IMG/VR virus record: IMGVR_UViG_3300020447_000012
Location: 1 to 25,041 of that record
Source: a virus
Strand: one strand, 5' to 3'
Length of the DNA: 25,041 bases
Shown here: positions 1 through 22,396 of the stretch, in pieces
Numbering within the stretch: the first letter of the stretch is position 1
How the letters are laid out: every line of letters starts with the position of its first letter
Notes under the pieces: generated by a model
Databases searched by the model: none
What the model was told of the DNA's origin: nothing
What the model saw: the letters and a program-made list of their open reading frames with translations, nothing else
Translations under genes and position numbers: made by a program

Positions 1-249
1 GATATGAAAGAACGTGGCATTCGCCCGCGTATGGCTCATATAGAAGCCGTTAGCCCAAGAAGTGCTGAAAAGGGGTTTGCATCTGGCCAGTTCATATTGA
101 TTGAACATTTAGGGTGGACGCGACCGGTAAAACTGACATATAAAGATGGCTCGGAAAAGAAGGTGTATTTCACCATTCCCGAAAAGATCGAATGCTGGGT
201 AGAAGATGTAAACGTGGAAAACATTCCACTAATTGAAAGCAGTATCTAA
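1..249 (+). CDS. Conserved phage protein, C-terminal part (GroES-like barrel possible)
   Basis: The reading frame is open to the left edge, so the gene is probably cut; an ATG at position 4 could also be the start (81 aa). The visible part has the pattern RPRMAHIEAVSP, then GQFILIEHLGWTR, then a short strand ending in FTIPEKI. This layout (a 'PRWAxVxAVGP ... VGDxILVEHxxWTR' series of beta strands) resembles small proteins of T4-type phages that are sometimes labelled co-chaperonin GroES-like; that name is from memory of the family and is not proven here. Its stop lies one base before the start codon of the clamp loader gene, so the two are probably co-translated. No catalytic residues are apparent. 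Confidence 0.6.
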   Translation, partial: DMKERGIRPRMAHIEAVSPRSAEKGFASGQFILIEHLGWTRPVKLTYKDGSEKKVYFTIPEKIECWVEDVNVENIPLIESSI

Positions 250-250
250 T

Positions 251-1174
251 ATGCGTTTATGGGTAGAAAAATACGCTCCCAATACAATAGATGAATACAT
301 TTTCAAAGATGATGAAACCCGCTCCATGGTTCAGTCGTGGATTGATAGGGGTTATACTGACAATTTATTGTTAGTAGGACCACCGGGTACGGGTAAGACA
401 TCGCTTTCGCGTGTTTTAATTAACGAGCTTGATATCGACGATTCGGATGTGATCAAAATCAATGCCTCCCGTGAAGGCAATATTGAAACTATGCGAACCG
501 TTATCCAAAGCTTTATCCAGTCGGGTGGATGGGGCTCTAAATTCCGATATGTCATTATGGATGAAGCGGACGGTATAACGGCTGCTGCACAAGATTCACT
601 TCGCTCTGACATAAGTGATAACGAACAACACGTTCGTTGGATTTTCACTGCCAACGCCAAACATAAAATTGCTCCTGCACTACTTGATAGGTGCATGGTG
701 ATTGAAGTTGATAAGCCTAGTAGAGATCAATTGTTGGAAAAACTTGTTCATATCATTGAACAAGAAAATGTAAAATTTAGTGAGGATGATGATCCTGTTG
801 AAATAATTGAAGAAATTTTAAACCTTCATTATCCGTCAGTACGAAAATGTATTAGGACATTGGATGCTAGTGTGCAGAATGGAATACTGCATCGGGTAAA
901 GTCTCAAGTAGCCATCGATGAAGATTGGAAATTTGAAATCTACAATGCATTTAAAGCGGGCAATCCAACAAATGGTAGAAACTTAATAGCAGAACATCTT
1001 ACCAAAGAAGAAATAGATGATTATTTATTATGGTTGAGTGAGAATTTGGACTTGACCCCAAACCCGTGTGTCGCTATAGTTCGAATACATGAAGGGTTGG
1101 TGTCTAATAGAATGTCTGCTTCTCCGGAAATTACATTAGCGGCAACACTGGTCCGAATTACACAGGAGATTTGA
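251..1174 (+). CDS. Clamp loader AAA+ subunit (T4 gp44-like)
   Basis: ATPase subunit of the sliding-clamp loader, which opens the clamp and places it on primer-template DNA. The 307-aa product is close to T4 gp44 (319 aa). Visible motifs: N-terminal WVEKYAP (typical 'W.EKYRP' of clamp loaders), Walker A GPPGTGKTS at residues 43-51, Walker B VIMDEAD at 101-107, sensor 1 TAN at 133-135, and LLDRC at 144-148, the equivalent of the SRC arginine-finger motif with D in place of S. The start at ATG 251 was preferred to an upstream TTG (233) because it begins at the conserved motif and abuts the previous stop. The small loader subunit (gp62) expected next in T4 is not recognisable; a Cys-rich protein sits there instead. 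Confidence 0.93.
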   Translation: MRLWVEKYAPNTIDEYIFKDDETRSMVQSWIDRGYTDNLLLVGPPGTGKTSLSRVLINELDIDDSDVIKINASREGNIETMRTVIQSFIQSGGWGSKFRYVIMDEADGITAAAQDSLRSDISDNEQHVRWIFTANAKHKIAPALLDRCMVIEVDKPSRDQLLEKLVHIIEQENVKFSEDDDPVEIIEEILNLHYPSVRKCIRTLDASVQNGILHRVKSQVAIDEDWKFEIYNAFKAGNPTNGRNLIAEHLTKEEIDDYLLWLSENLDLTPNPCVAIVRIHEGLVSNRMSASPEITLAATLVRITQEI

Positions 1175-1176
1175 CG

Positions 1177-1956
1177 GTGAGTGATGTAATTTGGCAAGGT
1201 GTTATACGTAAAACCAAACTCGGCGAATTGACGAAATCCATCAAAAACGACAATGTTGCTGTGGGTGTTCTAAAACATATAAGTTGGTTGGATGATAAAG
1301 TTCGCGCCGCTGGTCCGAAAGTTGTGATTGGACAATTCGATGATGCGTCCGATCTAAAAGAATTAAACGAACAGCGCAACTTGGATGAATTGATCGAAGT
1401 AACGGCGGAATCCATTGTAATGGATGTTGAGATGGCAGAGCGATTGGAAAAAGCTTTGTCAGCGGCAATTTCTGCTGCCCGTTCATATCAATATGGCGAT
1501 GATGATGTCGAATATCATTTGGCCAAATTTATGAACCTTTCAGAAAACCGTGGCGCAACCTTCCAACGTATTTCGGACAACCATTTGCGTGTGTTGAAAA
1601 CGATCCCCGATATCAGGGTATCCGTTGGCAAACTTACTATTGTTGGTGAAGACAAAATTCCCATAGAAGTTCCTGTAAACACGACGTGGTTCGCCCCAAA
1701 CGGCGAACTGTGTGATGTGTTTTTATATTCAAAACCGCCTGCTGGAACTATTAAAACATCATCGCGAAAGGATACCTGTATAGGCTGTGGAGAGCCCAAA
1801 GACGATTGCTACTGTGATCCTTGCATGGCGTGCGGTGAACCCGATCACTTGTGTGATTGTGAGGAATGTCCGTCCTGTAGCAGACCGGAAGACTCTTGTA
1901 TTTGTGAAGAATGTGAGGAATGTCACAGTCAACCACTCGACTGTACTTGTTATTAA
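1177..1956 (+). CDS. Unknown protein with four C-terminal CxxC-x6-CxC repeats
   Basis: A 259-aa protein of no recognised family. The first ~200 residues look like a mixed alpha/beta domain with a charged helix (VEMAERLEKALSAAISAAR). The last 60 residues hold four tandem units of the form C-x2-C-x6-C-x-C, spaced 14-16 residues apart (CIGCGEPKDDCYC, CMACGEPDHLCDC, CPSCSRPEDSCIC, CEECHSQPLDCTC), giving sixteen cysteines that could bind several zinc ions. GTG 1177 was chosen because AGGAG lies 8 nt upstream, whereas TTG 1171 is only 2 nt from it. The gene overlaps no neighbour seriously and sits where T4 carries gp62, just after the gp44-like gene, so a replisome role is possible but is inference only. 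Confidence 0.85.
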   Translation: MSDVIWQGVIRKTKLGELTKSIKNDNVAVGVLKHISWLDDKVRAAGPKVVIGQFDDASDLKELNEQRNLDELIEVTAESIVMDVEMAERLEKALSAAISAARSYQYGDDDVEYHLAKFMNLSENRGATFQRISDNHLRVLKTIPDIRVSVGKLTIVGEDKIPIEVPVNTTWFAPNGELCDVFLYSKPPAGTIKTSSRKDTCIGCGEPKDDCYCDPCMACGEPDHLCDCEECPSCSRPEDSCICEECEECHSQPLDCTCY

Positions 1957-1958
1957 TC

Positions 1959-2771
1959 ATGGATTTCGAAACAATAAAATCTCAACATATGAATATTGGT
2001 CTTATTCCGGCCAATGGTTTGCCCACATATTCTGAAAGGTGGATTAGAAGTCGTAGACAGATTCAAAGGAATTTTGAAATTGAAATATTGAATATGCTGA
2101 TTGATCTAAATCCACAGGCGCAGCATTTCATGATCGAATCCCCATGTCTTGTCACTCGTGATATGGTTAATGAGAATTACACCAATCAAGATATGTTTGT
2201 CCAATATTCGAATGAAAACGAACAACTGGTGCTTCGTCCCGAGACCACACCAGCATCATATGCATATGCAAAAAAACTTCTTGGCACAAACAGACAATCG
2301 AACGTTAAGCCGCCTTTGGTAGTATATCAAACCAATAAATCGTTTCGTCGCGAAACGGATCACGTCGTTAAAAATATGAGGCTGAAAGAATTTTATCAAT
2401 TGGAGTTCCAATTCATCTATTCAGCAGACACGAAAAACGATTACCATGCTCGTGTCCTCGAAAACATTTTAAATGTGTTTAACCGAGCAATCCCCGCCAT
2501 TGATTGCCATACGATACCGTCTGACCGTCTTCCTTCATATTCAGAAAAAACCACAGATGTTGAAACGCATATACAGTCCCAAGAATTCAAAGTGCCGGAT
2601 TCCCTCGAACTGTGTTCAATATCTACTAGAACAGACTTCAATCATCCGTATTCTTTTCATTACACTAATAAAAAAGGTGAAAAAATAGAAAAACCTATAG
2701 ATTTCAAAGTGTTAGAAATTGCAATCGGTTTAGATAGGTGCGTGTTCGCACATTTGATGAGTATTCCCTAG
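1959..2771 (+). CDS. Class II aminoacyl-tRNA synthetase-like core, glycyl type
   Basis: A 270-aa protein with the three class II synthetase signatures. Motif 1 region: IESPCLVTRDMV (residues 59-70). A GlyRS-like LRPETTP (92-98) precedes motif 2, FRRE (129-132) followed by LKEFYQLEFQFI, matching the GlyRS/ProRS pattern 'FRNE...REFxxxExxxF'. ELCSISTRTDFN (217-228) resembles the GlyRS 'ElxGIadRtDyDL' segment. Motif 3 is IAIGLDR (254-260). The motif 2 and motif 3 arginines that bind ATP are kept, so adenylate formation is plausible. The protein ends right after motif 3, so the anticodon-binding domain of full GlyRS is absent. ATG 1959 lies 2 nt after the previous stop, so co-expression with the clamp loader operon is likely. 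Substrate and true role are unknown. Confidence 0.82.
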   Translation: MDFETIKSQHMNIGLIPANGLPTYSERWIRSRRQIQRNFEIEILNMLIDLNPQAQHFMIESPCLVTRDMVNENYTNQDMFVQYSNENEQLVLRPETTPASYAYAKKLLGTNRQSNVKPPLVVYQTNKSFRRETDHVVKNMRLKEFYQLEFQFIYSADTKNDYHARVLENILNVFNRAIPAIDCHTIPSDRLPSYSEKTTDVETHIQSQEFKVPDSLELCSISTRTDFNHPYSFHYTNKKGEKIEKPIDFKVLEIAIGLDRCVFAHLMSIP

Positions 2772-2782
2772 ATGAGAATGGA

Positions 2783-3244
2783 ATGACTCAATCTAAAAAT
2801 TCACCAACATATGCGTATTCTTGGGATTGTATCAATCGTTCATATGATTGTGACGATTATTTTGAAGTAATGGATTTGGAAGAAGCCTTCGAACGTTCTA
2901 AAAAATATGCGGAAACGTATGGAATCGGCTTTTCTATAAAACGCGGCGTTGCTAAATTTGTATCCCATGAAGAAGCAATGGATCGGGCAGTGAGTCCGAC
3001 TCTGTCTGATTTCATCGAAGACACAATCATCGATGCGTTATATGAAGAGTTCGGGGAATGTGTGGAAAACTACCCCAATTTGGAGGGGTTTGAACCATTC
3101 CTAAAAGAAGCACTTGTGGTATTTTTGAAACAACAGGGAGAATGTCCTTGTTTTTATGTTGAGGAAATAGAAGATTGGTCTTTTGAACAAGTATCACCAT
3201 TAGAATTAATACATAAAGGTAGAAAGGAACAACCAGATGTCTAA
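2783..3244 (+). CDS. Hypothetical phage protein, 153 aa
   Basis: No family is recognised. The product is acidic, with a Tyr/Cys/Asp-rich start (YAYSWDCINRSYDCDDYFEV), a predicted helical middle and a 'FEPFLKEALVVFLKQQG' helix near residue 115, then CPCFYVEEIEDWSFEQ. The end region 'ALVVFLKQQGECPCFYVEEIEDW' is of a kind seen in small T4-type phage proteins of unknown role. ATG 2783 was preferred to an upstream in-frame GTG at 2738 because the latter would lie within the synthetase-like gene. The GA-rich stretch before it is only a weak ribosome binding site. It continues the clamp loader operon 11 nt downstream of the previous stop. Confidence 0.75.
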   Translation: MTQSKNSPTYAYSWDCINRSYDCDDYFEVMDLEEAFERSKKYAETYGIGFSIKRGVAKFVSHEEAMDRAVSPTLSDFIEDTIIDALYEEFGECVENYPNLEGFEPFLKEALVVFLKQQGECPCFYVEEIEDWSFEQVSPLELIHKGRKEQPDV

Positions 3245-3407
3245 CCCCTATGAAAATATGACTTTACAACAGTCTTTACTACATTTGAGTAGCCGATATC
3301 TACGGAAACCGGAATGTAAGGAACTTTGCGAGAATGCGGCTGCCAAGATCACTGATTTGGAAACGCGACTGGAAGAAGCGCATCGTCGTATGAACGATTC
3401 GCGGTAA
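3237..3407 (+). CDS. Small coiled-coil-like protein, 56 aa
   Basis: An ORF of 57 codons from ATG 3237 to TAA 3407 that overlaps the end of the preceding gene by 8 nt. A purine-rich AAAGGAA lies about 9 nt upstream. The product begins MSNPYENMTLQQSLLHLS, has a middle with two cysteines (PECKELCENAAAK) and ends in a charged helix (ITDLETRLEEAHRRMNDS) with heptad-like spacing, so it may form a short coiled coil. Function is unknown. The overlap, upstream purines and operon position support translation, but a protein this short can occur by chance. Confidence 0.55.
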   Translation: MSNPYENMTLQQSLLHLSSRYLRKPECKELCENAAAKITDLETRLEEAHRRMNDSR

Positions 3408-3465
3408 CCTTTCATTTGGTCCTCTATATTCTGGCATCAGATTTGATGGCGCGTTAAATATCCAT

Positions 3466-4254
3466 GTGAGCAAAAAGATTGTACCAATCTTCCCAAGGGA
3501 AGGACAATCCACCAGCAAGAACGCCGCTGGTAAGGCTCATTTGAATATTTCCGCAAATCCAGATAAGAGGACCCCAAACGTGGCAAAACGTAAACCTTCG
3601 TATGCCCGCAATGCGAGCAACGGATATCCAACCTTAATTCCTAGAAACAGAAATCAAAAAAAATTCATGGATAGTATTACACGCAATACTATCACTTTCG
3701 GATTTGGCTCTGCCGGATCAGGAAAAACCTTCATTGCGGCATCCATGGCGGCAGAAGCGCTTCAAAACGGCTTGTGTAGAAAAATTGTTGTATGTAGGCC
3801 AATTGTAGAAGCGGGAGGAGAACGATTGGGGTTCTTGCCCGGAACTTTAGAAGAAAAGTGTAGCCCCTATTTGCAACCGATCTTTGATGTGTTCGATCAG
3901 TTTTGGTATAAGAACCATCACAACACTTTACAAAGTCTTCTTCAAAAAGAAACAATCCAAATTGCACCACTTGCTTATATGCGTGGCAGGAATTTGAGTG
4001 ATTGTTGGGTACTGTGTGATGAAGCTCAAAACATGAATTCCGATATGATGAAGATGTTGTTATCTAGAACTTCTGAAAATACTAAGGTTATTATCACGGG
4101 TGACCCGGATCAACGGGACAATAAAAACGCGGACGGATTTGAAACAGCGATGCATTCGTTGAACGACTGTCCGGATGTTGGTTTCGTCCAGTTTGGAATA
4201 CGTGATGTAGAACGTAGTAAAGTAGTTCAGGACATTCTCCAACGCTGGCCATAA
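3466..4254 (+). CDS. phoH: PhoH-family P-loop ATPase
   Basis: A PhoH-like protein of 262 aa, a family of NTPases common in large phages, often linked to phosphate stress; the biochemical role in phages is not settled. After a basic ~60-residue N-terminal extension, QKKFMDSI leads into Walker A GSAGSGKTF (residues 81-89), then the family's CRPIVEAGGERLGFLPG segment (110-126), a DEAQN Walker B (185-189) and TGDPDQ (211-216). All family marks are present, so it should be active. GTG 3466 is the only plausible start seen; no Shine-Dalgarno sequence lies in front of it, and the N-terminus is less certain than the rest. A perfect 11-bp hairpin begins directly after the stop codon. Confidence 0.92.
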   Translation: MSKKIVPIFPREGQSTSKNAAGKAHLNISANPDKRTPNVAKRKPSYARNASNGYPTLIPRNRNQKKFMDSITRNTITFGFGSAGSGKTFIAASMAAEALQNGLCRKIVVCRPIVEAGGERLGFLPGTLEEKCSPYLQPIFDVFDQFWYKNHHNTLQSLLQKETIQIAPLAYMRGRNLSDCWVLCDEAQNMNSDMMKMLLSRTSENTKVIITGDPDQRDNKNADGFETAMHSLNDCPDVGFVQFGIRDVERSKVVQDILQRWP

Positions 4255-4288
4255 TAATTGTGGGCGGGTTCTCATCTGCCCACAATTA
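4255..4288 (+). terminator. Strong hairpin directly after phoH
   Basis: TAATTGTGGGC (4255-4265) is exactly complementary to GCCCACAATTA (4278-4288), giving an 11-bp stem with a 12-nt loop. It begins one base after the phoH stop and ends 14 nt before the next ATG. There is no T-run on the plus strand after it, so it may be an RNA-stabilising or pausing element rather than a standard intrinsic terminator. Confidence 0.5.
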
Positions 4289-4302
4289 CACTAAATATTC
4301 GT

Positions 4303-4839
4303 ATGTCAGAATACGATTTGATAATTGAAGCACTGGTAAATGGTGCTCCCGAAAAAGAAGTCACCGATGTTCTCACCGAGGGCAAGTTCGATGACAATCT
4401 CCGTGATACCCAAAATTTATATGTTCTTTTGTTTGAGCAGTACGTTGATGAATGCTCTTGCTACGCGTTTAAAGGGTGGGAAAATCTAAAAATTCGTGGT
4501 CGCCCCGTTATTGAAAAATATTGGGTGGAGATCGAATTGGTGGCACCTCAGGAATTTGATTATGAAGGTGGCGTTTCACGCTTACTCGGAAAAAACAAAG
4601 AAAATCGATCCAAGATCACAAAAACTTCCGATGGGACACCTATTCTAAAGGTTAGAATATTGAGAAGCTTGTTGGACCAATTGGAAGAAGAGAATCAAAG
4701 GATCGCACGTCGCGAAGCAGAAGATCAAGGATATGCTCCAAAATCGGATGATGAGCCGGAAAACAACGAACAAGAAGACCCCTTCATGAATAACTTCGAT
4801 AATGAGTTCGGAAACGAACCGGGTGGAGGTCCTTTCTAA
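4303..4839 (+). CDS. Hypothetical protein with acidic SSB-like C-terminal tip, 178 aa
   Basis: No family is recognised. The first 145 residues contain a charged helical start, a Cys pair (ECSCYAFKGW) and a predicted beta segment (PVIEKYWVEIELV), then a long helix (LLDQLEEENQRIARREAEDQ). The last 35 residues are disordered and rich in D, E and N, ending in GGEP-like residues and a terminal Pro-Phe, which recalls the acidic tail and tip of bacterial single-strand DNA-binding proteins (…DIPF). An OB fold cannot be shown from the sequence, so an SSB role is only a suggestion. ATG 4303 follows the hairpin and a CTAAATA sequence (4291-4297). The stop overlaps the next start by one base. Confidence 0.75.
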   Translation: MSEYDLIIEALVNGAPEKEVTDVLTEGKFDDNLRDTQNLYVLLFEQYVDECSCYAFKGWENLKIRGRPVIEKYWVEIELVAPQEFDYEGGVSRLLGKNKENRSKITKTSDGTPILKVRILRSLLDQLEEENQRIARREAEDQGYAPKSDDEPENNEQEDPFMNNFDNEFGNEPGGGPF

Positions 4840-5417
4840 TGAGCAAATTCATCGAACCGGAAAAGTACTATATCAAATCTCTTCGTGACGATTCCCCTGC
4901 CTTTGAAAAAAGTTTTGACAAAATAGAAGAAGCCGTGGAATTCCGAAATGGTTTACTGTTAAATGAATATTTTGACATTGCATACAATGGCGACGATCCA
5001 TTCATCAATAGAATATTGTCAGAAGGATTAATGAACGGCGATTTGGTGGATTTATTAAAGCCAGTGGTTTCTTTTGACGAGTATGTAGCCAAAAATGATA
5101 GCGACAACATCGTATTAGCCTTCTTCATATTAAATGAACCACTTGCTGTCGAACCATTAGCACGTTTTTGCGAAACCGCGTTTGGGGTAGAAGAAGTCGA
5201 TACATCGGATTCTGATGCAATTTCAAACGCAAGCGTTGTTTATGTGGAGTTCAAAAGAACCCCCGATTCCAAACAGCCTTTGTTAGACCTTATGCGGGAT
5301 GTGGCAATTGTAGCTGAAATAGAAATGACCGATTGGATGTTGGTTTTCCCACAAAATGACGGTAAGTATCCGTACGATGAGAAATTGATCGATCTTTATT
5401 TTGAAAAACTAGTGTAA
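4839..5417 (+). CDS. Hypothetical phage protein, 192 aa
   Basis: An acidic soluble protein with no recognised domain. The sequence begins MSKFIEPEKYYIKSLRDD, has a central hydrophobic stretch (NIVLAFFILNEPLAVEPLARF) too polar at its ends to be a clear membrane segment, and a C-terminal part rich in predicted strands (ASVVYVEFKRT, WMLVFPQNDGKYPYDEK). Start and stop overlap both neighbours by one base (TAATG at each end), so it is translated as part of the 4303-6257 block with the spanin genes. Function cannot be assigned. Confidence 0.75.
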   Translation: MSKFIEPEKYYIKSLRDDSPAFEKSFDKIEEAVEFRNGLLLNEYFDIAYNGDDPFINRILSEGLMNGDLVDLLKPVVSFDEYVAKNDSDNIVLAFFILNEPLAVEPLARFCETAFGVEEVDTSDSDAISNASVVYVEFKRTPDSKQPLLDLMRDVAIVAEIEMTDWMLVFPQNDGKYPYDEKLIDLYFEKLV

Positions 5418-5884
5418 TGGCTTTTTTAGCAACCATCATGTCTTTCTTCACTGGCACCAAACTCTTTAGAAACAAGTGGTTTTGGATTGGGATGGTGGTT
5501 GCCGCCTCTTTATTTGTACTTTGGAGAGTAGTTGACAATTACAAAGATGAGATATGGGATCAAATTCAAACACAAATCAGCGCAAATCGTTATAAAAACC
5601 AAGTAGAACTGTTGCAAAACGAATTACATGAATTGCAACAACTAAACCAATCACAATCCGAATTGGTTGCCGACATCCGTGAAACTGCTGCAAATGATTG
5701 GTTGCAATATCAACGAGATTTGGAGCGGATACGATCTTCCGATTTAGAAGGTGGAACTATCGGTCCTTATTTCTCACAAACCATGTTGGACATTACGCGA
5801 GAAGATGGTATATCATTTGAAGAGGCTGTAAGAAATTCAATAGGTTTGGCGGAAGAAGATGATGAAACTGAAAACGATCAGTAA
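5417..5884 (+). CDS. Inner-membrane spanin (Rz-like)
   Basis: A 155-aa protein with an N-terminal membrane segment (WFWIGMVVAASLFVLWRVV, residues 21-39) followed by a long periplasmic-type coiled coil (residues ~55-105, ELLQNELHELQQLNQSQSEL) and an acidic end. This is the layout of the i-spanin, which pairs with a lipoprotein o-spanin to fuse inner and outer membranes at lysis of Gram-negative hosts. The assignment rests mainly on the next gene, which starts inside its 3' end in another frame and encodes a lipoprotein, as in Rz/Rz1-type pairs. No holin or endolysin is seen nearby. An alternative is an unrelated membrane-anchored coiled-coil protein. Confidence 0.75.
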   Translation: MAFLATIMSFFTGTKLFRNKWFWIGMVVAASLFVLWRVVDNYKDEIWDQIQTQISANRYKNQVELLQNELHELQQLNQSQSELVADIRETAANDWLQYQRDLERIRSSDLEGGTIGPYFSQTMLDITREDGISFEEAVRNSIGLAEEDDETENDQ

Positions 5885-6257
5885 ATTGATACTTGTGTCC
5901 GTGCTTGGATTTTCTGTATCAGGGTGTTGGCTTTCTTTCGGCAGAGAAGACCCAACAATAATATATCGAACACAGTACCAAGCTCTAAATCTTCCATCCG
6001 AAGTTACCGAGGATTGTCCAGAATGGGTTAATCCTCCTCGAAGTCTTCTTCCTATTGGTCCAGAGGAAGAACGAATAATGGACGAACGGGATCAAGTTGA
6101 AGCCGCCGATTGGGCGAGAATGATCGCAGTACGCTATCAAATTTGCGAACGGAAGCCCGGACAAGTGCGCGAAGCCCAACAACTAATAAACGATTCCGTT
6201 GAACGGCTAAACGAAGCTGCAAGAAATGCGGACGAGGCCGATAAAGATGGTCGATAA
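5862..6257 (+). CDS. Outer-membrane lipoprotein spanin (Rz1-like)
   Basis: A 131-aa lipoprotein. MKLKTISKLILVSVLGFSVSGC is a signal peptide with basic start, hydrophobic core and lipobox SVSGC, cleaved before Cys22. The mature protein (110 aa) is short and charged, with a PPRSLLPIGPEEE turn and a helical C-terminus (REAQQLINDSVERLNEAARN). It overlaps the i-spanin gene by 23 nt in a different frame. The ATG at 5862 has GGAAG 6 nt upstream; ATG 5859, one codon earlier, is an equal alternative. Expected to sit in the inner leaflet of the outer membrane and bind the periplasmic part of the i-spanin. Identification follows from signal type and overlap, not from sequence homology. Confidence 0.78.
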   Translation: MKLKTISKLILVSVLGFSVSGCWLSFGREDPTIIYRTQYQALNLPSEVTEDCPEWVNPPRSLLPIGPEEERIMDERDQVEAADWARMIAVRYQICERKPGQVREAQQLINDSVERLNEAARNADEADKDGR

Positions 6258-6260
6258 TGT

Positions 6261-6271
6261 CCTATTATGAT
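6261..6271 (+). promoter_or_regulatory. Promoter-like CCTATTATGAT before the ClpP-like gene
   Basis: The 46-bp gap between the o-spanin and peptidase genes holds CCTATTATGAT with a TATGAT -10-like core (6266-6271), 32 nt before the ATG. No TTGACA-like -35 is seen. Near-copies occur in other strand-switch gaps of this window. Confidence 0.4.
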
Positions 6272-6303
6272 TTCGATAGTAATCGAACAACAAGGACATC
6301 AAT

Positions 6304-6900
6304 ATGCGGCATCATCCAGTAAAATACGAATCCGGCAAATATGGTGAACAGGCGTTCGACCTTTTCTCATGGTTGGCCCTATATCGTAAAAAGATTTTCA
6401 TTAATGATATTATTGATGATGATTTGGCAAATATCCTTATTGGTCAAATGTACGCATTGTCTTCCGAGGCTACCCATGAAATAGAGTTTATTATCAACAG
6501 TCCCGGTGGTAGTGTTTATGCTATGAATTGCATTTTGGATGCAATGGACATGATGAAAGAAAAATTCACGGTCAAAACAAAAGTAGCAGGAACGGCTTTT
6601 TCGGCTGCTGCAATTATCCTAACCAATGGGACGTTGGGGCATAGAAGCGCCACCCCGCGTTCCCGCATCATGTTTCACGACATTTCGTCGGGTGGAACAG
6701 GCAAGTTTACCGATCTTGAAGCGAGTTTGGAAGAAACCCGGCATTTGAGAGATAGTATATCCGACACAATCAAATACAACACGTTGATTACGGATGAAAA
6801 TGTCAAGGAATTCATGAGCACTGATAGATATATTGGTGCAGAAGAAGCAATGGAATTGAGTATCATTGATAAAATTTCCAACACCATTGATCAGTATTAG
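6304..6900 (+). CDS. ClpP-type serine peptidase
   Basis: A 198-aa ClpP/crotonase-fold peptidase, the size of a mature bacterial ClpP. FIINSPGGSVYAM (62-74) is the oxyanion-strand motif, GTAFSAAA holds the nucleophile Ser100, RIMFHD holds His125, and STDRYIGAEEA holds Asp174. Spacing between the three (25 and 49 residues) equals that of E. coli ClpP (S97, H122, D171), so the enzyme should be active. No Clp ATPase or scaffold gene is seen, leaving open whether it uses host ClpX/ClpA, works alone, or is a prohead-type protease. It lies in a replication/lysis neighbourhood, not beside capsid genes. AAGGAC lies 7 nt upstream of the ATG and a promoter-like motif further upstream. Confidence 0.88.
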   Translation: MRHHPVKYESGKYGEQAFDLFSWLALYRKKIFINDIIDDDLANILIGQMYALSSEATHEIEFIINSPGGSVYAMNCILDAMDMMKEKFTVKTKVAGTAFSAAAIILTNGTLGHRSATPRSRIMFHDISSGGTGKFTDLEASLEETRHLRDSISDTIKYNTLITDENVKEFMSTDRYIGAEEAMELSIIDKISNTIDQY

Positions 6901-6908
6901 GAAGCACC

Positions 6909-7376
6909 ATGTCCGACGAAAATAAAAATGCAAATGACGAGTTTTGGGATACGGTTGGTGAAGAAACTGATCCAGTAAAACATTTCATCAAACGACTGTC
7001 CGAATGTGGTGCAGACGTTGAAATCATAGATAATAGAGTAAAAGTTCGCAACGCTTGCGAGAAACTTCATTATCATGAAGCGGGAAAGTATAAAGAACTC
7101 TTTTGTGATGAATGTGGTATATCAATATCAGTAGACAATCTCGTTAACTTGGATGACGATATCAATGATACTGAAAGTACAGATGAAAACGATCCCGCTC
7201 CTCAAACCAAAGAATTAAGCGATTTAGACGAATTCATGCAGGCCGTAGAAACTGGTGTGGGCGACTATGATTACGATTCATCGATGGTCGATCCTTCTCA
7301 AGAAAGCGTGGGTTCAGAAGAAGCTAGTTTCGACTACGATGAAGCAGAACCGACATCAGATGACGATTTTATATAA
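6909..7376 (+). CDS. Acidic hypothetical protein with a Cys/His cluster, 155 aa
   Basis: Residues 1-80 form a possible small domain with NACEKLHYHEAGKYKELFCDECG, where one Cys, two His and a CxxC could bind zinc. The remaining half is very acidic and probably disordered, ending in EPTSDDDFI, which resembles acidic partner-binding tails of single-strand DNA-binding proteins. The gene sits 8 nt after the peptidase gene with GGAAG as ribosome binding site, and its TAA directly abuts the ATG of the DinG-like helicase. This suggests coordinated production and perhaps a physical partnership; that is inference. No family is recognised. Confidence 0.75.
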   Translation: MSDENKNANDEFWDTVGEETDPVKHFIKRLSECGADVEIIDNRVKVRNACEKLHYHEAGKYKELFCDECGISISVDNLVNLDDDINDTESTDENDPAPQTKELSDLDEFMQAVETGVGDYDYDSSMVDPSQESVGSEEASFDYDEAEPTSDDDFI

Positions 7377-8972
7377 ATGTCCGAGTTGAACCAATACTTC
7401 CCCTACGATACAGTTCGAAAACAACAACAAGAAATTCTTGATTTTATTGAAGAAAATTCGGACAAACGTGTTTTATTGATCAATGCGCCCACTGGTGTTG
7501 GTAAATCCGGTGTTGCAATGGCTTTGGCTAGATCGTGCCCAAAAGCGTGGATTTTAACAGAAACCAAAGCACTACAAGATCAATACCAAGAAGAATTTTC
7601 TGATTTGGTTTCAATCAAAGGTAAAAATTCCTACAAATGCAAAATCAAGGTTTCTGAAACCGTAGACAATGGTCCATGTGTTGCTCATGCACCAACCTTA
7701 GAATATTGTAAAGCCTTGAGCAAATGCGATTATTATAATGTAAGAGACAAGGCAATGTGGTCACCCAACGTGGTCACTAATTACAATTTCGTATTGTCAC
7801 TAGCTGAAATTGGTGCCAAAAGTTTGGTACATCGTGACGTTGTAATATGCGACGAGGGACACTGTATTGAAGACAAAATTGTCGAACAGTCGTCATTCAA
7901 GATCGATCCGAAACTATTCATCCATCGTTATGACATCAATATTTCAAAAGATTTCCAACTCAAAGAAGATGATGATGTTTACCTTATTGTGGATAAAATT
8001 GCTAGTCGTATCTTAGACAAGATAGACGAAATAACAAAAAAGCTGCATGCTATAAAGCCGGTGTTGAACGATGAGGGTATATCGGTTGAAGTAACGATGG
8101 AAGAAAAAATTCTCCGTCAGCGCCAAAAAGCACTTAACAACCATCTTGATCGCATTCAACTGTTTGCGGAAACTCCCAAATCGTGTTGGATCACCGATAT
8201 CAATGAAAAGGAAAACATCCTTACGGTAACCCCTTACCATGCCGATAGATTTTTTTGGAAATACTTTGATCTAATAGCGGATCAAATTGTCATCATGTCG
8301 GCCTCTTTGGGCGATCCAGACTCCATGATTACGGAACTAGGATTGGATCATGCTGACACCGCATACATTGATGTGGATACGCCATTTGCACCTGAAAAGT
8401 CTCCGATTCTTCTTATGCCTGAATTCAAAATGGGATATAAAGACTTTGATTCAACCAAACATGCCATGGTTAAGCGTATTGATGAAATATTGAGTAACAT
8501 GCATGAAAATGAAAAAGGCATTATTCACAGTGGCAACTACAAGACCGCCAAGTATATCACAGAGAACTCAATACATAAAGATCGTTTCCTTTTTAAAGAA
8601 AGCGGCGACCGACACATTACTAATGCGCATATCTTTGAATTGCATAGAACCGATCCACGTCCAACGGTTCTTGTGTCGCCATCGATGCATACCGGAGTAG
8701 ATGCTAAAGGCGATCTGGCCAAATTCCAGATCATTCCTAAATTGCCATTTGCAAATATGACTGATCCACGTGTCAAAGCCAAAATGCGTCGAGACAATTT
8801 TTGGTATGCTAATCAAACATGGAATAAAATAATTCAAGCCTGTGGTCGTGCTACTCGTAACGAAGATGATGAATCGGTTACGTACATTTTGGATGCCGCA
8901 GTAAACTATCAGTACCAAATGTTCCACACACATTTACCTGTGTGGTTCAAGAAAAGGATTCACCGATTGTGA
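7377..8972 (+). CDS. DinG/XPD-type iron-sulfur DNA helicase
   Basis: A 531-aa superfamily 2 helicase of the Rad3/XPD/DinG group. Q motif region at residues 8-20, Walker A APTGVGKSG (37-45, Lys43), four cysteines C88, C101, C111 and C117 in the place of the 4Fe-4S domain, VVTNYNFVL (132-140), a DEGH box (159-162) in place of DEAH, MSASLGD near residue 310 as motif III/IV region, and QACGRATR (487-494) as motif VI with the arginine finger. Such enzymes unwind DNA 5' to 3' and act on forks, R-loops or recombination intermediates. T4 does not use this family for its standard helicases, so it is an addition to the T4-type set. The start abuts the preceding stop. Confidence 0.92.
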   Translation: MSELNQYFPYDTVRKQQQEILDFIEENSDKRVLLINAPTGVGKSGVAMALARSCPKAWILTETKALQDQYQEEFSDLVSIKGKNSYKCKIKVSETVDNGPCVAHAPTLEYCKALSKCDYYNVRDKAMWSPNVVTNYNFVLSLAEIGAKSLVHRDVVICDEGHCIEDKIVEQSSFKIDPKLFIHRYDINISKDFQLKEDDDVYLIVDKIASRILDKIDEITKKLHAIKPVLNDEGISVEVTMEEKILRQRQKALNNHLDRIQLFAETPKSCWITDINEKENILTVTPYHADRFFWKYFDLIADQIVIMSASLGDPDSMITELGLDHADTAYIDVDTPFAPEKSPILLMPEFKMGYKDFDSTKHAMVKRIDEILSNMHENEKGIIHSGNYKTAKYITENSIHKDRFLFKESGDRHITNAHIFELHRTDPRPTVLVSPSMHTGVDAKGDLAKFQIIPKLPFANMTDPRVKAKMRRDNFWYANQTWNKIIQACGRATRNEDDESVTYILDAAVNYQYQMFHTHLPVWFKKRIHRL

Positions 8973-9430
8973 GCAAGAAATGGGATTTCCGATATTTGCG
9001 AATGGCTAAAGAGATAGCTAGCTGGTCTAAAGACCCGTCCACCCAATGTGGGGCTGTTATCGTTGATAAAGACCGGCGACCGGTATCTTGGGGTTATAAC
9101 GGTTTTCCATCCGGGATAGAAGACACAGAAAGCCGATTACACGATAGACCGGTCAAATACGACCTTACTATTCATTGTGAAATCAATGCCATCTTACAGG
9201 CTGATAGAAGCTTGTTGAAAGGGTCAACGCTTTACACATGGCCCTTCATCACATGCCATCGTTGCGCCGTTCACGTGGCATCTGTGGGCATCTGTCGAGT
9301 AGTTTCGGTTGATTATGCGCCGGAACGTTGGGAAGAGTCATTTTGTAAAGCGGCTGGAATATTTTCCGTCCATGATCCGGTTATTGAATTGGTTCAATAT
9401 CCACTAGATCAATTTGAAAATTCTCTTTGA
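8969..9430 (+). CDS. Deoxycytidylate (dCMP) deaminase
   Basis: A 153-aa zinc-dependent deaminase that converts dCMP to dUMP to feed dTMP synthesis. Visible: DPSTQCGAVIV (22-32), SWGYNGFPSG (40-49), the HCE zinc/catalytic motif (His69, Glu71) and FITCHRC with Cys96 and Cys99. The usual proline before the first zinc Cys (PCxxC) is replaced by Thr. GTG 8969 was chosen because it forms a GTGA overlap with the helicase stop; an in-frame GTG at 8942 lies deep in that gene. The last 22 nt overlap the 3' end of the convergent gene on the other strand. T4 cd is longer (193 aa). Confidence 0.92.
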   Translation: MSKKWDFRYLRMAKEIASWSKDPSTQCGAVIVDKDRRPVSWGYNGFPSGIEDTESRLHDRPVKYDLTIHCEINAILQADRSLLKGSTLYTWPFITCHRCAVHVASVGICRVVSVDYAPERWEESFCKAAGIFSVHDPVIELVQYPLDQFENSL

Positions 9431-9978
9431 CAATAAATTTCCATGGCTTGGGGACTTTCAAAGCAAATCCCCTTTTGCCATTTGTCTTTGGAAATGAATC
9501 GACCCGTTGCCTTGCATCTTGGAATATCTCTCTGAATGCTTTTATCTAGAAGGCGCATTTCATCGTTTAATATTTCTTTGGGGAGATTTTCCAGTTTGGC
9601 GGTTTCCAAAATCATATAAGCCAACAAACTTTTCATAGGCAAGTCAAGAAATTCTTGTTTGGTAACTCCTGCACGGTCCTCACAAAAATTCGCAAACGTT
9701 TCCAATACATCATTCATCGCCATCATGTCATGCGTTGAACTTTGTTCGTACAGTTGAGTAAACACATTACTCGATTGAGTTGCGTATGTTGAAATTGAAT
9801 TTGCAGTATTACACACAAGATTTGAATCGATTTGATAGGTGCTTTGCGTTGAATCGCTGATAACTATTTCAGCACTCGATAATTCATCGTCATCATAAAC
9901 ACCATCTTGCATGTCCTTTATCCATTGCTCTTCTGGATTCGAACAAGCTATCCCGCTTTTAGTAATCACACACGCCAT
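9409..9978 (-). CDS. Hypothetical protein, 189 aa, Ser/Thr-rich middle
   Basis: No domain is recognised. Residues 35-75 are rich in Ser, Thr and Gln (for example TQSTYQIDSNLVCNTANSIS), suggesting a flexible linker. The second half looks helical and conserved in style (QEFLDLPMKSLLAYMILETAKLENLPKEIL), ending in CKATGRFISKDKWQKGICF. Its ATG overlaps the stop of the zinc-ribbon gene (ATGA), so it is the last gene of a three-gene minus-strand operon. It converges on, and overlaps by 22 nt, the dCMP deaminase gene. Confidence 0.72.
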   Translation of the reverse strand: MACVITKSGIACSNPEEQWIKDMQDGVYDDDELSSAEIVISDSTQSTYQIDSNLVCNTANSISTYATQSSNVFTQLYEQSSTHDMMAMNDVLETFANFCEDRAGVTKQEFLDLPMKSLLAYMILETAKLENLPKEILNDEMRLLDKSIQRDIPRCKATGRFISKDKWQKGICFESPQAMEIYCQREFSN

Positions 9979-10268
9979 CAGATATTAAGCCATTTCTCTC
10001 GTAGAAAGATGGATGCCGTCATGGTCCGCATGTTGTTATCATCGCTGGTCCATGTGCCTGTTTTTTTAGTTACTGGGGTATCCACAACATTGTTTCGTGA
10101 ACTCCATCTATCCCCCGTAACCACTCCATTCTCAATAACTCGGCAATGTTCATGTCCGCAATGAGGACAAACAATTATATGCTGTCCATCCAATTTCATG
10201 TTCAGTACGGCAATGAAATCTTTATCGCAATCGTGACAATACATTTCCGTTTTGGTTTTATCATCCAT
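9978..10268 (-). CDS. Zinc-ribbon protein, 96 aa
   Basis: A small protein with CHDC (residues 11-14) and CPHCGHEHC (34-42) arranged as a zinc ribbon, separated by a two-stranded segment (DFIAVLNMKLDGQHIIV). The rest is polar and Thr/Asn-rich, ending in TASIFLREKWLNI. The ATG at 10268 overlaps the stop of the upstream gene; a longer reading from 10292 would need a non-standard overlap. Zinc ribbons of this type bind nucleic acid or stabilise small phage proteins; no specific role can be given. Confidence 0.72.
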   Translation of the reverse strand: MDDKTKTEMYCHDCDKDFIAVLNMKLDGQHIIVCPHCGHEHCRVIENGVVTGDRWSSRNNVVDTPVTKKTGTWTSDDNNMRTMTASIFLREKWLNI

Positions 10269-10834
10269 TACGGGAAATCCTTGCGAAACCATTTGGAAAA
10301 TTTGGAGAACATTCCATTGGCTGACTTCTTAACAGTTTCAGCATCAAGCCGTCTCGCTTCCACATCAATTGCATTTGCGACACGCTTTGCCGCTGTGGTT
10401 GGGACAATTGAGTGAGTTTTCATCGGACGATCCGAAGCTAAAAGTTCACTCTTTCCCCTTTTAAGAATTTTGTGCCAAGGAAAAGGGGACTTATCGTGCC
10501 ATTCCCATATAACATTTTCAATTAATGAATCACCAACCGAAAACTTTCTATCGAACTCTGCTCGCAGCATGGATGATTTGTATTCGGAGTTTGTTTCCAA
10601 ATCAAACATTGAAAAGACTACATCCTTATTAGTAACATCGTATACTAACAAGAGCGAACCATCTTTGTGTTCTGCCCAATTCAATGGAGACAAAACATCG
10701 TTGTTTTTTGGATTGGAACCCGGTACATCATTTGTAGACATTGCTGTGTTTCCTGTAATAAACATTCCACTGTTATCGATGTATATTCGTAAAAGATCAT
10801 TAAACTTTAATTGTTTTTCTCTTGCGTTCAGCAT
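10268..10834 (-). CDS. Hypothetical protein, 188 aa
   Basis: First gene of the minus-strand trio and transcribed away from the nucleotidyltransferase gene. No family is recognised. Residues 25-50 are Asn/Ser/Pro-rich and probably flexible; the middle holds strands (GSLLLVYDVTNKDVVFSMFD) and the C-terminus is a basic, amphipathic segment (FSKFSKWFRKDF) that could touch nucleic acid or membrane. The 64-bp gap upstream contains promoter-like motifs facing both ways. Basis for being real: coding-like composition, operon overlaps and lack of any competing gene. Confidence 0.7.
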   Translation of the reverse strand: MLNAREKQLKFNDLLRIYIDNSGMFITGNTAMSTNDVPGSNPKNNDVLSPLNWAEHKDGSLLLVYDVTNKDVVFSMFDLETNSEYKSSMLRAEFDRKFSVGDSLIENVIWEWHDKSPFPWHKILKRGKSELLASDRPMKTHSIVPTTAAKRVANAIDVEARRLDAETVKKSANGMFSKFSKWFRKDFP

Positions 10835-10854
10835 TTTATTATTGTATTCGACGA

Positions 10855-10865
10855 CCTGTTATGAT
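10855..10865 (+). promoter_or_regulatory. Promoter-like CCTGTTATGAT before the nucleotidyltransferase gene
   Basis: CCTGTTATGAT with a TATGAT core (10860-10865), which also fits an extended -10 (TGtTATGAT). It lies 34 nt before the ATG at 10899, in the divergent gap. Confidence 0.4.
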
Positions 10866-10880
10866 ACTATCAATATGGAT

Positions 10881-10894
10881 ATCATAAGGGACAT
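10881..10894 (-). promoter_or_regulatory. Promoter-like ATGTCCCTTATGAT facing the minus-strand trio
   Basis: Read on the minus strand, ATGTCCCTTATGAT matches the ATGTCCTATTATGAT upstream of the ClpP-like gene with one base deleted and one changed. Its TATGAT core (10886-10881) is about 47 nt before the start at 10834. Together with the plus-strand motif it makes the gap a divergent promoter. Confidence 0.4.
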
Positions 10895-10898
10895 TTAA

Positions 10899-11939
10899 AT
10901 GCAAGTGCAATTTGTCACGGGAACCATTGCGGGTTCGTTCTTGTTCGGAACACATCACGAAACGTCGGATGTGGATGTTAGGTGTATTCATTTACCCAAT
11001 CGTCAAGAAATTCTTCTTGGTCGTCGTCCGAAAGAAGCCTCCACCCTTTCTACTCTTACATCACATCACGAAACAATTTACGATGATGCCACGCAAGCAA
11101 TCTCCGATATGTACGGACACACCGTGTCGGTTGATCGGTCCCAAGATGGAGAAGATATTAAATCCTTCGTTTTACAACGCTTTTTGGAATTGGTGGCAGA
11201 TGGAGAAATAACGTGTGTTGAACAAGTGTTCACTCCTGCCCAACTGTTTATCAGTCATCTACATAATCCGTTGCTGTGGGACCAGTTACAACAAGATGTG
11301 TTTCCACATATTTTGAATAGGAACACCGAACGGTCGGTGGGCTTCTGTAATGGCATCATGGTTAATTTCCGCCACAGGTCCGATAGGTTGGCCTCTGCAA
11401 TAGAAGTTCAAAAAGCGTTTAAAAGTGTGTTCGGATCGTCTGGACGACATCACAAACTTCAAGATTTCCATGAGCAATTGAACCATTTGTATGAACTTGA
11501 ATATGTGGAATTTGATGAGACCGATCCAAAAGTACCGTTGATGCGTGTTTGTGACAGGGGTTTCCAATATACCGCCTCAATCTTTGAGGCTCAAAAATCT
11601 ATTGATAGATTGGTCGATACATATGGAAAACGTGCGCATCGATCACAAAACATGCAAAAGACTGATTGGAAATCTGTCTCACACGCAATGCGCGTTAGCG
11701 AACAGATTTTGGAATTACATGAAACGGGTAAGATCACATTCCCGCGTCACAATTCTCAATATCTACAACAAATTCGAGAAGGTCTTCACGACGTTGATTT
11801 ATTGATGGATGTGATCAACGAGCGTACGGAAACAATCGAAAGCATGAATTCCAGTGTGTTGCCGGAAAAAGCAAACATCGATTTGATGAACGATTATTTA
11901 ATGGAATTGCATACAAAAATCGTTAATGGGAACGATTAG
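10899..11939 (+). CDS. Nucleotidyltransferase, RlaP/YcgL-like (pol beta superfamily)
   Basis: A 346-aa protein with the pol-beta nucleotidyltransferase signature at the extreme N-terminus: GSFLFGTHHETSDVDVR, with Gly12-Ser13, Gly17 and the metal-binding pair Asp24/Asp26. RCIHLPNRQEILLG (28-41) fits the RlaP-type family (PF10127-like), whose members are predicted nucleotidyltransferases of largely unknown substrate. The remainder is alpha-helical, as in that family. ATG 10899 has AAGGGA 7 nt upstream. The stop overlaps the ligase stop on the other strand by 4 nt. The target in a phage could be an RNA end, a tRNA, a host protein or a defence molecule; the sequence does not tell. Confidence 0.82.
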   Translation: MQVQFVTGTIAGSFLFGTHHETSDVDVRCIHLPNRQEILLGRRPKEASTLSTLTSHHETIYDDATQAISDMYGHTVSVDRSQDGEDIKSFVLQRFLELVADGEITCVEQVFTPAQLFISHLHNPLLWDQLQQDVFPHILNRNTERSVGFCNGIMVNFRHRSDRLASAIEVQKAFKSVFGSSGRHHKLQDFHEQLNHLYELEYVEFDETDPKVPLMRVCDRGFQYTASIFEAQKSIDRLVDTYGKRAHRSQNMQKTDWKSVSHAMRVSEQILELHETGKITFPRHNSQYLQQIREGLHDVDLLMDVINERTETIESMNSSVLPEKANIDLMNDYLMELHTKIVNGND

Positions 11940-13303
11940 TTTTCTGTTTTGTCATGTCGGATACGAACCAGTCTGGCAAACCTGAACGAATAATGATCGT
12001 GGCCTTCGCCTTTGGTTAGCGAATCGGCCATGATTTCAGCATACGCTCCATCGATCAGTTCGGGTGTGTCTCGTATTTGGTCTCGTAATTCGTCAGAGAT
12101 GCCACCAGACACGTTCCCATGGATGAATACGGGTTCTGGCGCATCCATTTTGCCTTGCTTAATCTTGGCGGCTTGAGCATCCGTGATGTTCGGTGCGGCA
12201 TAACCCTCACAAACAATCGATCCCACAGTGTTTTCAAACTTCTTTCCGGCCTCTCCCGGCAACCATCCAACTATCGGAAGGTCATAAGTTTCGGTAGGCT
12301 TCATTTTGAGCCATGTTTTGTCTTTCTTGAAATTGTAAGGCAGCGTGGAGTCCTTGATCATGATCCCTTCGAAACCGGCAGCAAGTTGAGCTTCAAACAA
12401 TCCCATTATCGATTCGTCATCCGTTTGCGCATTGATTCCTTTTTCACAATACGACAGGTCAAGTGGCAAGTCGGGATTACGCGATTTCAAGAACGCAACG
12501 AACTCCTCCAACACCGCTCTGCGGAAAGACAGGGGGGCCGTTGTTGTTTGGTCCCAATACTCATTCAACGGAAGAATATCAAAAGCTAATGCGAGACCGT
12601 CAAAGCACACATCATTTTTTCTACGTAACTGTTTGGAAAGGGCTTGGAAATCAGCACTCACAACTTCTGTATCTAACATGATCCCTTCTTGAGGGAAGTT
12701 GGGGTAATTTCGAATATCTTCCAACGCGTCCGCAATTGTGCTAAAGTTATGATATTCCTTACCATTTCGGGAATAACATCTAATATCACCAGTATGTGGA
12801 ATTATCCAAATTGCTCGTACTCCATCATATTTTGCTTCAATAAAACAATCAGTTGGGAGTTTGTGCACTTGCTGGGTATTTATATTAAGAGAAAGTTGGC
12901 ATCCAAACGTCTTGATACGCCATTGTGTGGGTGCGGCAGCGTTTATGGTGTTTATTGCGGTACCACACCGCAAATCTTTTGAAAGAATTCGTTTATACCA
13001 ATAATCCCATTGCTCTTCCGTGCAACTTTCAGCAAATTGTTTAATGGTATCCAGTGCCAGATTTCCGGTAATCTTCCGGTTAGCTAGCGCTTCCGCCAAT
13101 TTTTTGAAGGTTTCGAATTTCACCCCCGGACCATGTGTTTCTGGTTGAGGAAATTTTTTCACATGAAATACTGTTAACGGATCGAGAGCGAGTTGCGCGC
13201 CTTCCCAAAAGTCGTTTCCGTCTTCTAATGATTTTAATAGGTCAAGCTTTTCGTTCTTTTTAGAAGTTTGTTCTAGAGCGAATACCACATTCCACGGTTT
13301 CAT
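11936..13303 (-). CDS. ATP-dependent DNA ligase (T4 gp30-like)
   Basis: A 455-aa ligase that seals nicks through an adenylated lysine. Motif I is EAKYDGVR with nucleophile Lys158 (T4 ligase Lys159). Motif III region is LDTEVV, motif IV is GFEGIMIKD and motif V is WLKMKP; an N-terminal helical DNA-binding domain (residues 1-130, with KRILSKDLRCG) and a C-terminal OB-type domain complete the protein. T4 gp30 is 487 aa. AAGGAT lies 6 nt upstream of the ATG. It follows the HTH gene by 12 nt on the same strand and lies downstream of the DNA polymerase, so it serves Okazaki-fragment joining and repair. Confidence 0.95.
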   Translation of the reverse strand: MKPWNVVFALEQTSKKNEKLDLLKSLEDGNDFWEGAQLALDPLTVFHVKKFPQPETHGPGVKFETFKKLAEALANRKITGNLALDTIKQFAESCTEEQWDYWYKRILSKDLRCGTAINTINAAAPTQWRIKTFGCQLSLNINTQQVHKLPTDCFIEAKYDGVRAIWIIPHTGDIRCYSRNGKEYHNFSTIADALEDIRNYPNFPQEGIMLDTEVVSADFQALSKQLRRKNDVCFDGLALAFDILPLNEYWDQTTTAPLSFRRAVLEEFVAFLKSRNPDLPLDLSYCEKGINAQTDDESIMGLFEAQLAAGFEGIMIKDSTLPYNFKKDKTWLKMKPTETYDLPIVGWLPGEAGKKFENTVGSIVCEGYAAPNITDAQAAKIKQGKMDAPEPVFIHGNVSGGISDELRDQIRDTPELIDGAYAEIMADSLTKGEGHDHYSFRFARLVRIRHDKTEN

Positions 13304-21884: not shown

Positions 21885-22396
21885 ATACGTTGTACATGTT
21901 GATAGGTCTTCCGGGAAGCGGTAAGTCGCATTTCCGCAACCAGTTTTTGCAAGATAATCCGGACGTGTTTGTCTATTCCACTGATGATTACCTTCTTGAG
22001 ATCGCTTCGTCCAAGAATATTTCTTATAACGACGCCCTTTCAAAACATTATAAAACGGCGCTCAAGCGAGCAAATCAGGATTTGATAAAGGCCATCGAAG
22101 AGGGCCGGGATGTTCTTTGGGATCAAATGAATATTCACAGATCGTCAAGAATTCGCAAGACCAACCGTTTTCCAGAAGCTTATAAAAAGATCGCAATTGT
22201 CATCTCATGTGATATTGATGAAATTGTAGAACGTTGCGCGAAACGGGAAAATCAAGTTATTTCGGAAAAAGTTATCCGGGACTTGCATTCCCAATACACA
22301 TATCCTACCGATGATCCCATCAAATGGGACGAGATCAAACAAATTTGGACTACGGGTCTTTGGGATCGTGGTACTGAACAAACGGAAAACGATTAG
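21881..22396 (+). CDS. Polynucleotide 5'-kinase domain protein (T4 PNK-like)
   Basis: A 171-aa P-loop kinase like the N-terminal half of T4 polynucleotide kinase (PseT), which phosphorylates 5'-OH ends of DNA or RNA. GLPGSGKSH puts Lys15 and Ser16 at the same numbers as in T4 Pnk; STDDY supplies Asp35, the catalytic base in T4. WDQMNIHRSSRIRKTNRFP (80-98) is the nucleotide-donor side segment and CAKRENQ holds the lid arginine. The T4 3'-phosphatase domain is missing, so 3' ends would need another enzyme. The last 47 nt overlap the convergent methyltransferase gene. Confidence 0.87.
   Translation: MNTLYMLIGLPGSGKSHFRNQFLQDNPDVFVYSTDDYLLEIASSKNISYNDALSKHYKTALKRANQDLIKAIEEGRDVLWDQMNIHRSSRIRKTNRFPEAYKKIAIVISCDIDEIVERCAKRENQVISEKVIRDLHSQYTYPTDDPIKWDEIKQIWTTGLWDRGTEQTEND

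Follow-up and report, generated by a model that had tools for sequence, protein, structure and literature searches.

The gene at positions 1959-2771 (+ strand) of the analysed viral DNA (IMG/VR record IMGVR_UViG_3300020447_000012, positions 1 to 25,041; the whole stretch of 25,041 nucleotides is called the window) encodes a 270-aa protein that is the core of a class II aminoacyl-tRNA synthetase related to the bacterial alpha2 glycyl-tRNA synthetase (GlyRS). We read it as a core-only paralogue of an alpha2-type GlyRS that would form glycyl-adenylate and pass the glycine most likely to a tRNA, a reading that, taken as a whole, we consider about as probable as all others together.

The ATG at 1959 lies 2 nt past the stop codon of the gene before it, without a clear Shine-Dalgarno sequence at this position; an in-frame ATG upstream at 1920 (283 aa) and another downstream at 1989 are other possible starts. 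The segments LRPET, FRRE, RTDF and GLDR, picked out in an earlier sequence-only reading of this DNA, were all located in this ORF. That reading had also described the protein as devoid of an anticodon-binding domain. The chain indeed stops 10 residues beyond motif 3, and no such domain is present in it or in the next ORF (2738-3244), which had no Pfam match over its cut-off. The features of the region are the following, with residue correspondences to the GlyRS of Mycobacterium tuberculosis (Mtb) and counts among 64 aligned family members.

1-249: ORF entering from the window edge and overlapping the clamp-loader start (ORF list)
233-1174, + strand: clamp-loader ATPase, T4 gp44-like (phrog_168, 4e-58); context only, not conserved
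1171-1956, + strand: gene in the position of the clamp-loader small subunit, with a Cys-rich tail (gene order and sequence); context only
1959-2771, + strand: core-only GlyRS-like protein (Pfam, NCBIfam and PDB searches; predicted model)
2232-2246, + strand: LRPET, residues 92-96; E95 = E165 of Mtb GlyRS, ammonium-binding triad
2343-2354, + strand: motif 2 FRRE, residues 129-132; R130 = R197, E132 = E199 (64/64 each)
2397-2405, + strand: Q147-L-E149; = Mtb GlyRS Q214 (carbonyl contact) and E216 (triad) (64/64 each)
2520-2543, + strand: lid segment SDRLPSYS, aligned to the GlyRS lid [AS]HY[AS]; P192 and Y194 (64/64)
2607-2636, + strand: ELCSISTRTD; E217 = E284 (ribose/metal), R224 = R291 (64/64 each)
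residues 224-227, + strand: RTDF (sequence)
2715-2738, + strand: motif 3 EIAIGLDR; E253 = E324, A255 = A326, R260 = R331
residues 257-260, + strand: GLDR of motif 3 (sequence)
2738-3244, + strand: 168-aa ORF overlapping the 3' end of the GlyRS-like gene; no family assigned

The gene had been placed third in an operon opened by the clamp loader. It is the third gene of a run that includes the clamp loader, but opening by the clamp loader cannot be shown because ORF 1-249 overlaps the clamp-loader start. The gene at 1171-1956 gave no family match above chance; its tail carries many CxxC/CxC pairs, which is unusual for a clamp-loader small subunit. Elsewhere the window encodes an RlaP-like RNA-repair nucleotidyltransferase (10899-11939; Pfam PF10127, 3.6e-6) and a polynucleotide-kinase-like AAA_33 protein (21881-22396). 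No tRNA or Rfam RNA was found in the window, nor in the five bacterial loci searched alongside it.

The class II relation and the GlyRS likeness, both proposed from the letters alone, were recovered by Pfam, NCBIfam and PDB profiles in agreement with the predicted fold. Pfam model PF00587 (tRNA-synt_2b) matched the protein over its gathering cut-off (5.6e-8). The best NCBIfam model was glycine--tRNA ligase (1.1e-16), with a score of 60.8 bits against a curated cut-off of 312 that was not reached, and therefore denotes kinship to this ligase, not membership. GlyRS also headed the PDB search, with the single sequence (4e-8) as well as with a 64-row profile (3e-17). Over 25 family members, the NCBIfam GlyRS model matched all 25 (best 8.5e-17), while the HisZ model gave weak matches in 6 (best 9e-8) and the class IIb model PF00152 weak matches in just 3 (best 0.0044), the last count speaking against the AsnA/EpmA-type kinship that had been suggested. 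An AlphaFold2 (AF2) model built on 64 relatives reached a pLDDT of 91 and a pTM of 0.90. Compared using VIA-align, this predicted structure matched GlyRS best, the first 18 rows all being GlyRS (Z 22.1-24.1) and the next one ProRS (21.8), at an identity to GlyRS of about 20%. POLG2 was not among the 50 structural rows listed, a fold relation being still possible. Judged by sequence and profiles, the protein is closer to GlyRS than to every other class II enzyme.

In Mtb GlyRS three glutamates (E216, E165 and E324) hold the glycyl group, Q214 touches its carbonyl, side chains are kept out by A326, and the adenylate is held by R197, E199, F212 and R331, with E284 binding ribose and metal; a lid is described in the same work (PMC12208437). 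Residue conservation was scored in an alignment of 64 family members, where E216, E165, E324, Q214 and A326 correspond to E149, E95, E253, Q147 and A255 of the GlyRS-like protein, and R197, E199, F212, R331 and E284 to R130, E132, F145, R260 and E217. All of these residues are present in 64 of 64 members, with the exception of A255, found in 62 and replaced by Ser in two; R224 (= R291) is invariant as well. Thus the arginines of motifs 2 and 3, whose persistence in homologues had been proposed as a check, never vary, and the earlier argument that the retained ATP-site residues favour an enzyme extends to every aligned member. The glycyl-AMS contacts E218 and T209 of Mtb GlyRS are not kept, being replaced by Q151 (63/64) and by L/F/Y, respectively. 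Conversely, S220, S222 and P192 are invariant in the family and different in the GlyRS compared; S220 and S222, near the pocket, are diagnostic of the family, the aligned GlyRS having G and A at these positions. No Cys or His column is invariant or exceeds 80% in the 64-member alignment. With the residues that hold glycyl-AMP invariant, formation of glycyl-adenylate by the GlyRS-like protein is very probable. The conservation pattern would be hard to explain unless glycine and ATP were still bound, and it argues against a degenerate structural subunit.

The family is large and distributed among jumbo phages. A tblastn search of annotated phages returned 21 records, and in 19 the match extended over at least 80% of the query. 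The phages matched were Sinorhizobium Phosso, Xanthomonas XbC2, Brevundimonas and Caulobacter phages (Bertelyvirus) and two 635-kb uncultured phages; two short gut records among the matches are full-length GlyRS. Scans gave at least 66 viral loci and at least 77 in bacterial genomes, for the most part those of Rhizobium, Phenylobacterium, Devosia and Mesorhizobium. Any match at all was found in just 4 of 385 genomes of the sampled class, two of these being weak and in longer frames. In the Rhizobium genus group the gene occurs in 75 of 148 genomes, nearly always intact and usually as one chromosomal gene per genome, with few broken copies. Members measure about 220-300 aa and are labelled in GenBank as hypothetical protein, serine-tRNA synthetase, RNA synthetase class II or aminoacyl-tRNA synthetase; no report of the family was found in the literature searched.

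Five Rhizobium genomes (G398, G409, G411, G427 and G463) hold just fragments or stop-broken remnants of the gene, and such remnants in a few species are a sign of repeated gain and loss. Two others carry two copies each (L164/L168 in G004 and L165/L166 in G005), both G004 copies with the leader element described below. In the tree, the main bacterial clade is nested among phage genes, joined with L068, L042 and L053 (SH-aLRT 100), and the window protein sits on a long branch inside the same large clade. This nesting points to a transfer of the gene from phage to bacterium, with the usual caution due to a quick tree.

The viral neighbourhoods were analysed at 58 dereplicated loci, 57 of which were compared with the window. 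Translation genes recur near the phage copies more often than replication genes, and a translation context is favoured. tRNA genes lie within the fetched flanks at 30 of the 58 loci. At locus L041, representing one of the nearest phage relatives of the window in the tree, a CysRS ORF overlaps the GlyRS-like gene by 4 nt, starting inside its end. In the nine-member Phosso clade, CysRS and peptidyl-tRNA hydrolase genes lie within about 3.5 kb of the gene, and peptidyl-tRNA hydrolase is also found near it at two distant loci. Phosso moreover encodes a 196-aa core-only HisRS (L224, 4096-4686; PF13393, 2e-21) one ORF after tRNA-His(GUG), and thus a second truncated class II synthetase in addition to its GlyRS-like family member. 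Proximity to a tRNA is by itself weak evidence because tRNAs are dense in such genomes: in 50 kb sampled from Phosso, about 45% of the CDS have one at a distance of 2 kb or less. tRNA-Gly was dropped as a preferred neighbour after a test on the isotype of the nearest tRNA, which gave no Gly enrichment (1 of 9, p 0.75).

Replication genes were found within about 5 kb of the gene at 1 of the 57 other loci, the L011 lineage, where gp45-, gp44- and gp62-like genes lie upstream and a family B DNA polymerase gene downstream; none was found at the other 56 at the sensitivity used. The replication genes of the window and of L066 were sought at all loci, and only the L011 lineage and the window were positive. 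The link between the GlyRS-like gene and the clamp loader is weak and not conserved. Locus L066 carries, by sequence, a T4-like replication module at 136-12117 (gp47, gp45, gp44, gp62, polymerase, UvsX-like), in which the GlyRS-like gene precedes that of the polymerase.

In bacteria the gene is solitary, at a chromosomal site that varies even within Rhizobium, and no tRNA genes were found near it. The copies are under purifying selection (median NG86 dN/dS 0.16, 92 pairs). All 40 Rhizobium genomes tested encode the canonical GlyRS alpha subunit, so that the small protein is an extra one there and not a replacement. Upstream of nearly all bacterial copies we detected a short leader ORF, mostly of 28-43 codons, ending in GGN-CGA-GGT-CTN-CGC-GTC-..., the invariance of CGAGGT being partly by construction because this string anchored the leader search. 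An 11-bp hairpin surrounds the leader stop codon. RNAalifold recovered this helix unaided, and compensating changes keep six pairs paired (for instance GC 12/CG 8/GU 2 and GC 8/UG 5/CG 5/UA 4). The leader pattern was found in 22 of 60 Rhizobium genomes, at 23 sites that all lie some 50 nt upstream of the GlyRS-like gene, against 0 in the backward control. No Rfam family corresponds to the hairpin, and the bacterial leader motif was not found upstream of the phage genes. Across loci L100-L176, leader ORF, covarying hairpin and an AAAGC motif occur once per copy, as in these two examples.

L173, about 5840-5980: leader element
L164, 5812-5934: leader element

Leader and hairpin together are a candidate new attenuator. 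A ribosome stalling at GGN-CGA-GGT would hold the hairpin open, so it is reasonable to infer attenuation, and the arrangement looks like ribosome-mediated control of the bacterial gene. The sensing codons could be those for Gly as well as those for Arg.

Taken together, we propose that the GlyRS-like protein binds ATP and glycine in the manner of GlyRS and forms glycyl-adenylate, as its invariant residues strongly suggest, and that it would then most likely load this glycine onto the 3' terminus of at least one tRNA; having no anticodon-binding domain, it would recognise its tRNA through the acceptor end only. In large phages it would belong to a translation kit (tRNAs, CysRS, core-only HisRS, peptidyl-tRNA hydrolase, RNA ligase) by which a supply of charged tRNA is maintained while the infection proceeds. 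Rhizobium and its relatives would have retained a phage-type copy as a self-contained chromosomal gene with its leader ORF and hairpin. Counting every version with a tRNA acceptor, including the one in which the tRNA is an amber reader, we hold such an acceptor to be slightly favoured. GlyRS reads C35/C36 through its anticodon-binding domain, and the loss of this domain counts against tRNA charging. So do the lack of Gly bias of the nearest tRNAs, the lack of tRNAs near the bacterial copies, and the precedent of glycine:[carrier protein] ligase, EpmA and HisZ, known core-only class II paralogues that no longer charge tRNA.

The best surviving alternative, which we regard as possible though clearly less likely, is that the activated glycine goes to an acceptor other than tRNA (a carrier protein, a protein side chain, a modified nucleoside or a small molecule), by analogy with the Bradyrhizobium glycine:[carrier protein] ligase, EpmA and GluQ-RS. 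Paralogues of this sort typically consist of the core only (review PMC9437257). The Bradyrhizobium ligase follows ProRS among the structural matches of the predicted model (Z 21.4 over 230 residues), and the solitary bacterial copies away from tRNAs would suit this option, as would S220 and S222, by which the surroundings of the pocket differ from those of the GlyRS compared. However, the sequence is of GlyRS type, the carrier-protein ligases being 14% identical to it and absent from the PDB profile matches, and the family has no conserved Cys/His set for the zinc on which these ligases depend (PMC9437257). A carrier-protein partner was sought in whole phage records and rejected: the domain PF00550 occurs in just 6 of 38, never adjacent to the GlyRS-like gene. 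In ligases of this type the gene for the cognate carrier protein is usually a close neighbour.

An amber pair, comparable to the orthogonal pairs of PylRS type, in which the enzyme would charge a phage tRNA-CUA and UAG would be read through, plausibly as glycine, we find unlikely. It was suggested by a lone tRNA-CUA with G73, situated 53-1875 bp upstream of the gene at nine loci of the Phosso clade, whose GlyRS-like proteins are 61-89% identical and whose sequence between tRNA and gene differs. tRNA-CUA also occurs elsewhere in several other gene-bearing phages, and an enzyme lacking the anticodon-binding domain would accept a tRNA whatever its anticodon. But the nine loci are all of one lineage and widely syntenic, so that the arrangement may be one inherited block, and near most members of the family tRNA-CUA is absent. 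The acceptor stems of the tRNA-CUA are variable and not tRNA-Gly-like. In Xanthomonas phage XacN1 there are two tRNA-CUA genes, for which no target is known (PMC5852040), yet no XacN1 record is found among the tblastn phage matches, and pattern matches for tRNA-CUA in Rhizobium did not exceed the backward control. Finally, TAG still serves as a stop codon in Phosso (5/95), XbC2 (4/94) and the window (7/30), and a genome-wide TAG reassignment was rejected on this ground. Scans for control phages lacking the gene gave 10 loci with the window polymerase and 2 with the clamp loader, too few for testing an association of tRNA-CUA with the gene. Many of the phages analysed carry one to three tRNA-CUA each, often of two sequence types (L023, 7585-7660; L189-L211). 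A broader scenario, for which we see little probability, would have jumbo phages of Alphaproteobacteria encode a natural orthogonal pair of core-only GlyRS and tRNA-CUA, amber meaning glycine during infection, and Rhizobium take over only the synthetase and use it, controlled by the leader peptide, for a different glycylation.

It is very unlikely that the adenylate or a dinucleotide is itself the end product or a signal, as with Ap4A made by GlyRS or in a HisZ-like regulatory paralogue: human GlyRS with Ap4A (2zt5) is among the best structural matches (Z 23.2) and the HisZ profile weakly matches the 6 members mentioned above, but the neighbourhoods show nothing for nucleotide signalling or histidine synthesis, and the conservation of the glycine triad and of the lid implies that binding of glycine is important. 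The C-terminal domain of POLG2 is of a kind common to anticodon-binding domains. A replication accessory subunit resembling animal POLG2 and acting on the phage polymerase or clamp loader, as had been entertained because of the clamp-loader genes preceding the window gene, would also fit the L011 lineage, yet it is hardly credible given a wholly invariant catalytic site, a 270-aa chain without the POLG2-type C-terminal domain, and copies that stand alone in bacteria and apart from detected replication genes at the other 56 viral loci; the protein is probably not a replication factor.

Core-only synthetase paralogues are already known as a kind, and the GlyRS-like family adds a variant. If our preferred reading, glycyl-adenylate formation with tRNA as the likely acceptor, is right, this is a widespread family of minimal glycine-activating enzymes for which PHROGs holds no model. 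It would show the lower size limit of a working natural class II synthetase, add to the jumbo phages carrying their own translation parts and, as a naturally anticodon-blind enzyme, offer a possible tool. Thanks to the Rhizobium branch, the function can be put to the test in a bacterium that is cultivable and amenable to genetics. Leader and hairpin form a built-in reporter there, and its inducer would show which signal the enzyme answers.

Among known systems, EpmA and AsnA (class IIb, derived from LysRS and AspRS) differ from the family, in which PF00152 is found in just the 3 members of 25, and so does HisZ, the best profile of the members being that of GlyRS. POLG2 has a fold derived from a class II synthetase; it lacks an active site and relies on its anticodon-domain-like C terminus, the GlyRS-like protein being the reverse on both counts. 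GluQ-RS (YadB) is similar in logic only, its synthetase core having acquired a new acceptor site after or with the loss of the anticodon domain (PMC9437257); it is a class I enzyme derived from GluRS, with no sequence relation. The core-only HisRS of Phosso is likewise a truncated class II core of a jumbo phage near a tRNA gene, but of HisRS lineage and with a function that is only predicted. The glycine:[carrier protein] ligase Bll0957 (PDB 4h2s, 3mf2) is, like the GlyRS-like protein, a stand-alone glycine-activating class II core without an anticodon domain, and is alphaproteobacterial; apart from its low identity, it differs by its zinc dependence and by acting with a carrier protein, none being encoded beside the GlyRS-like gene. 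Finally, with the alpha2 GlyRS (Mtb, PDB 8u2p/8t5n) the protein shares the class II core, motifs 2 and 3, the glutamate triad, the equivalents of Q214 and A326 and the ATP contacts, and its predicted model finds there its best structural matches (Z 24.1). It departs from them by the missing C-terminal HGTP-type anticodon-binding domain, the replacements of E218 by Q and of T209 by L/F/Y, and the invariant S220, S222 and P192. Because this domain is absent and the curated score not reached, it is not a member of GlyRS as defined; it would nevertheless work like the catalytic core of GlyRS.
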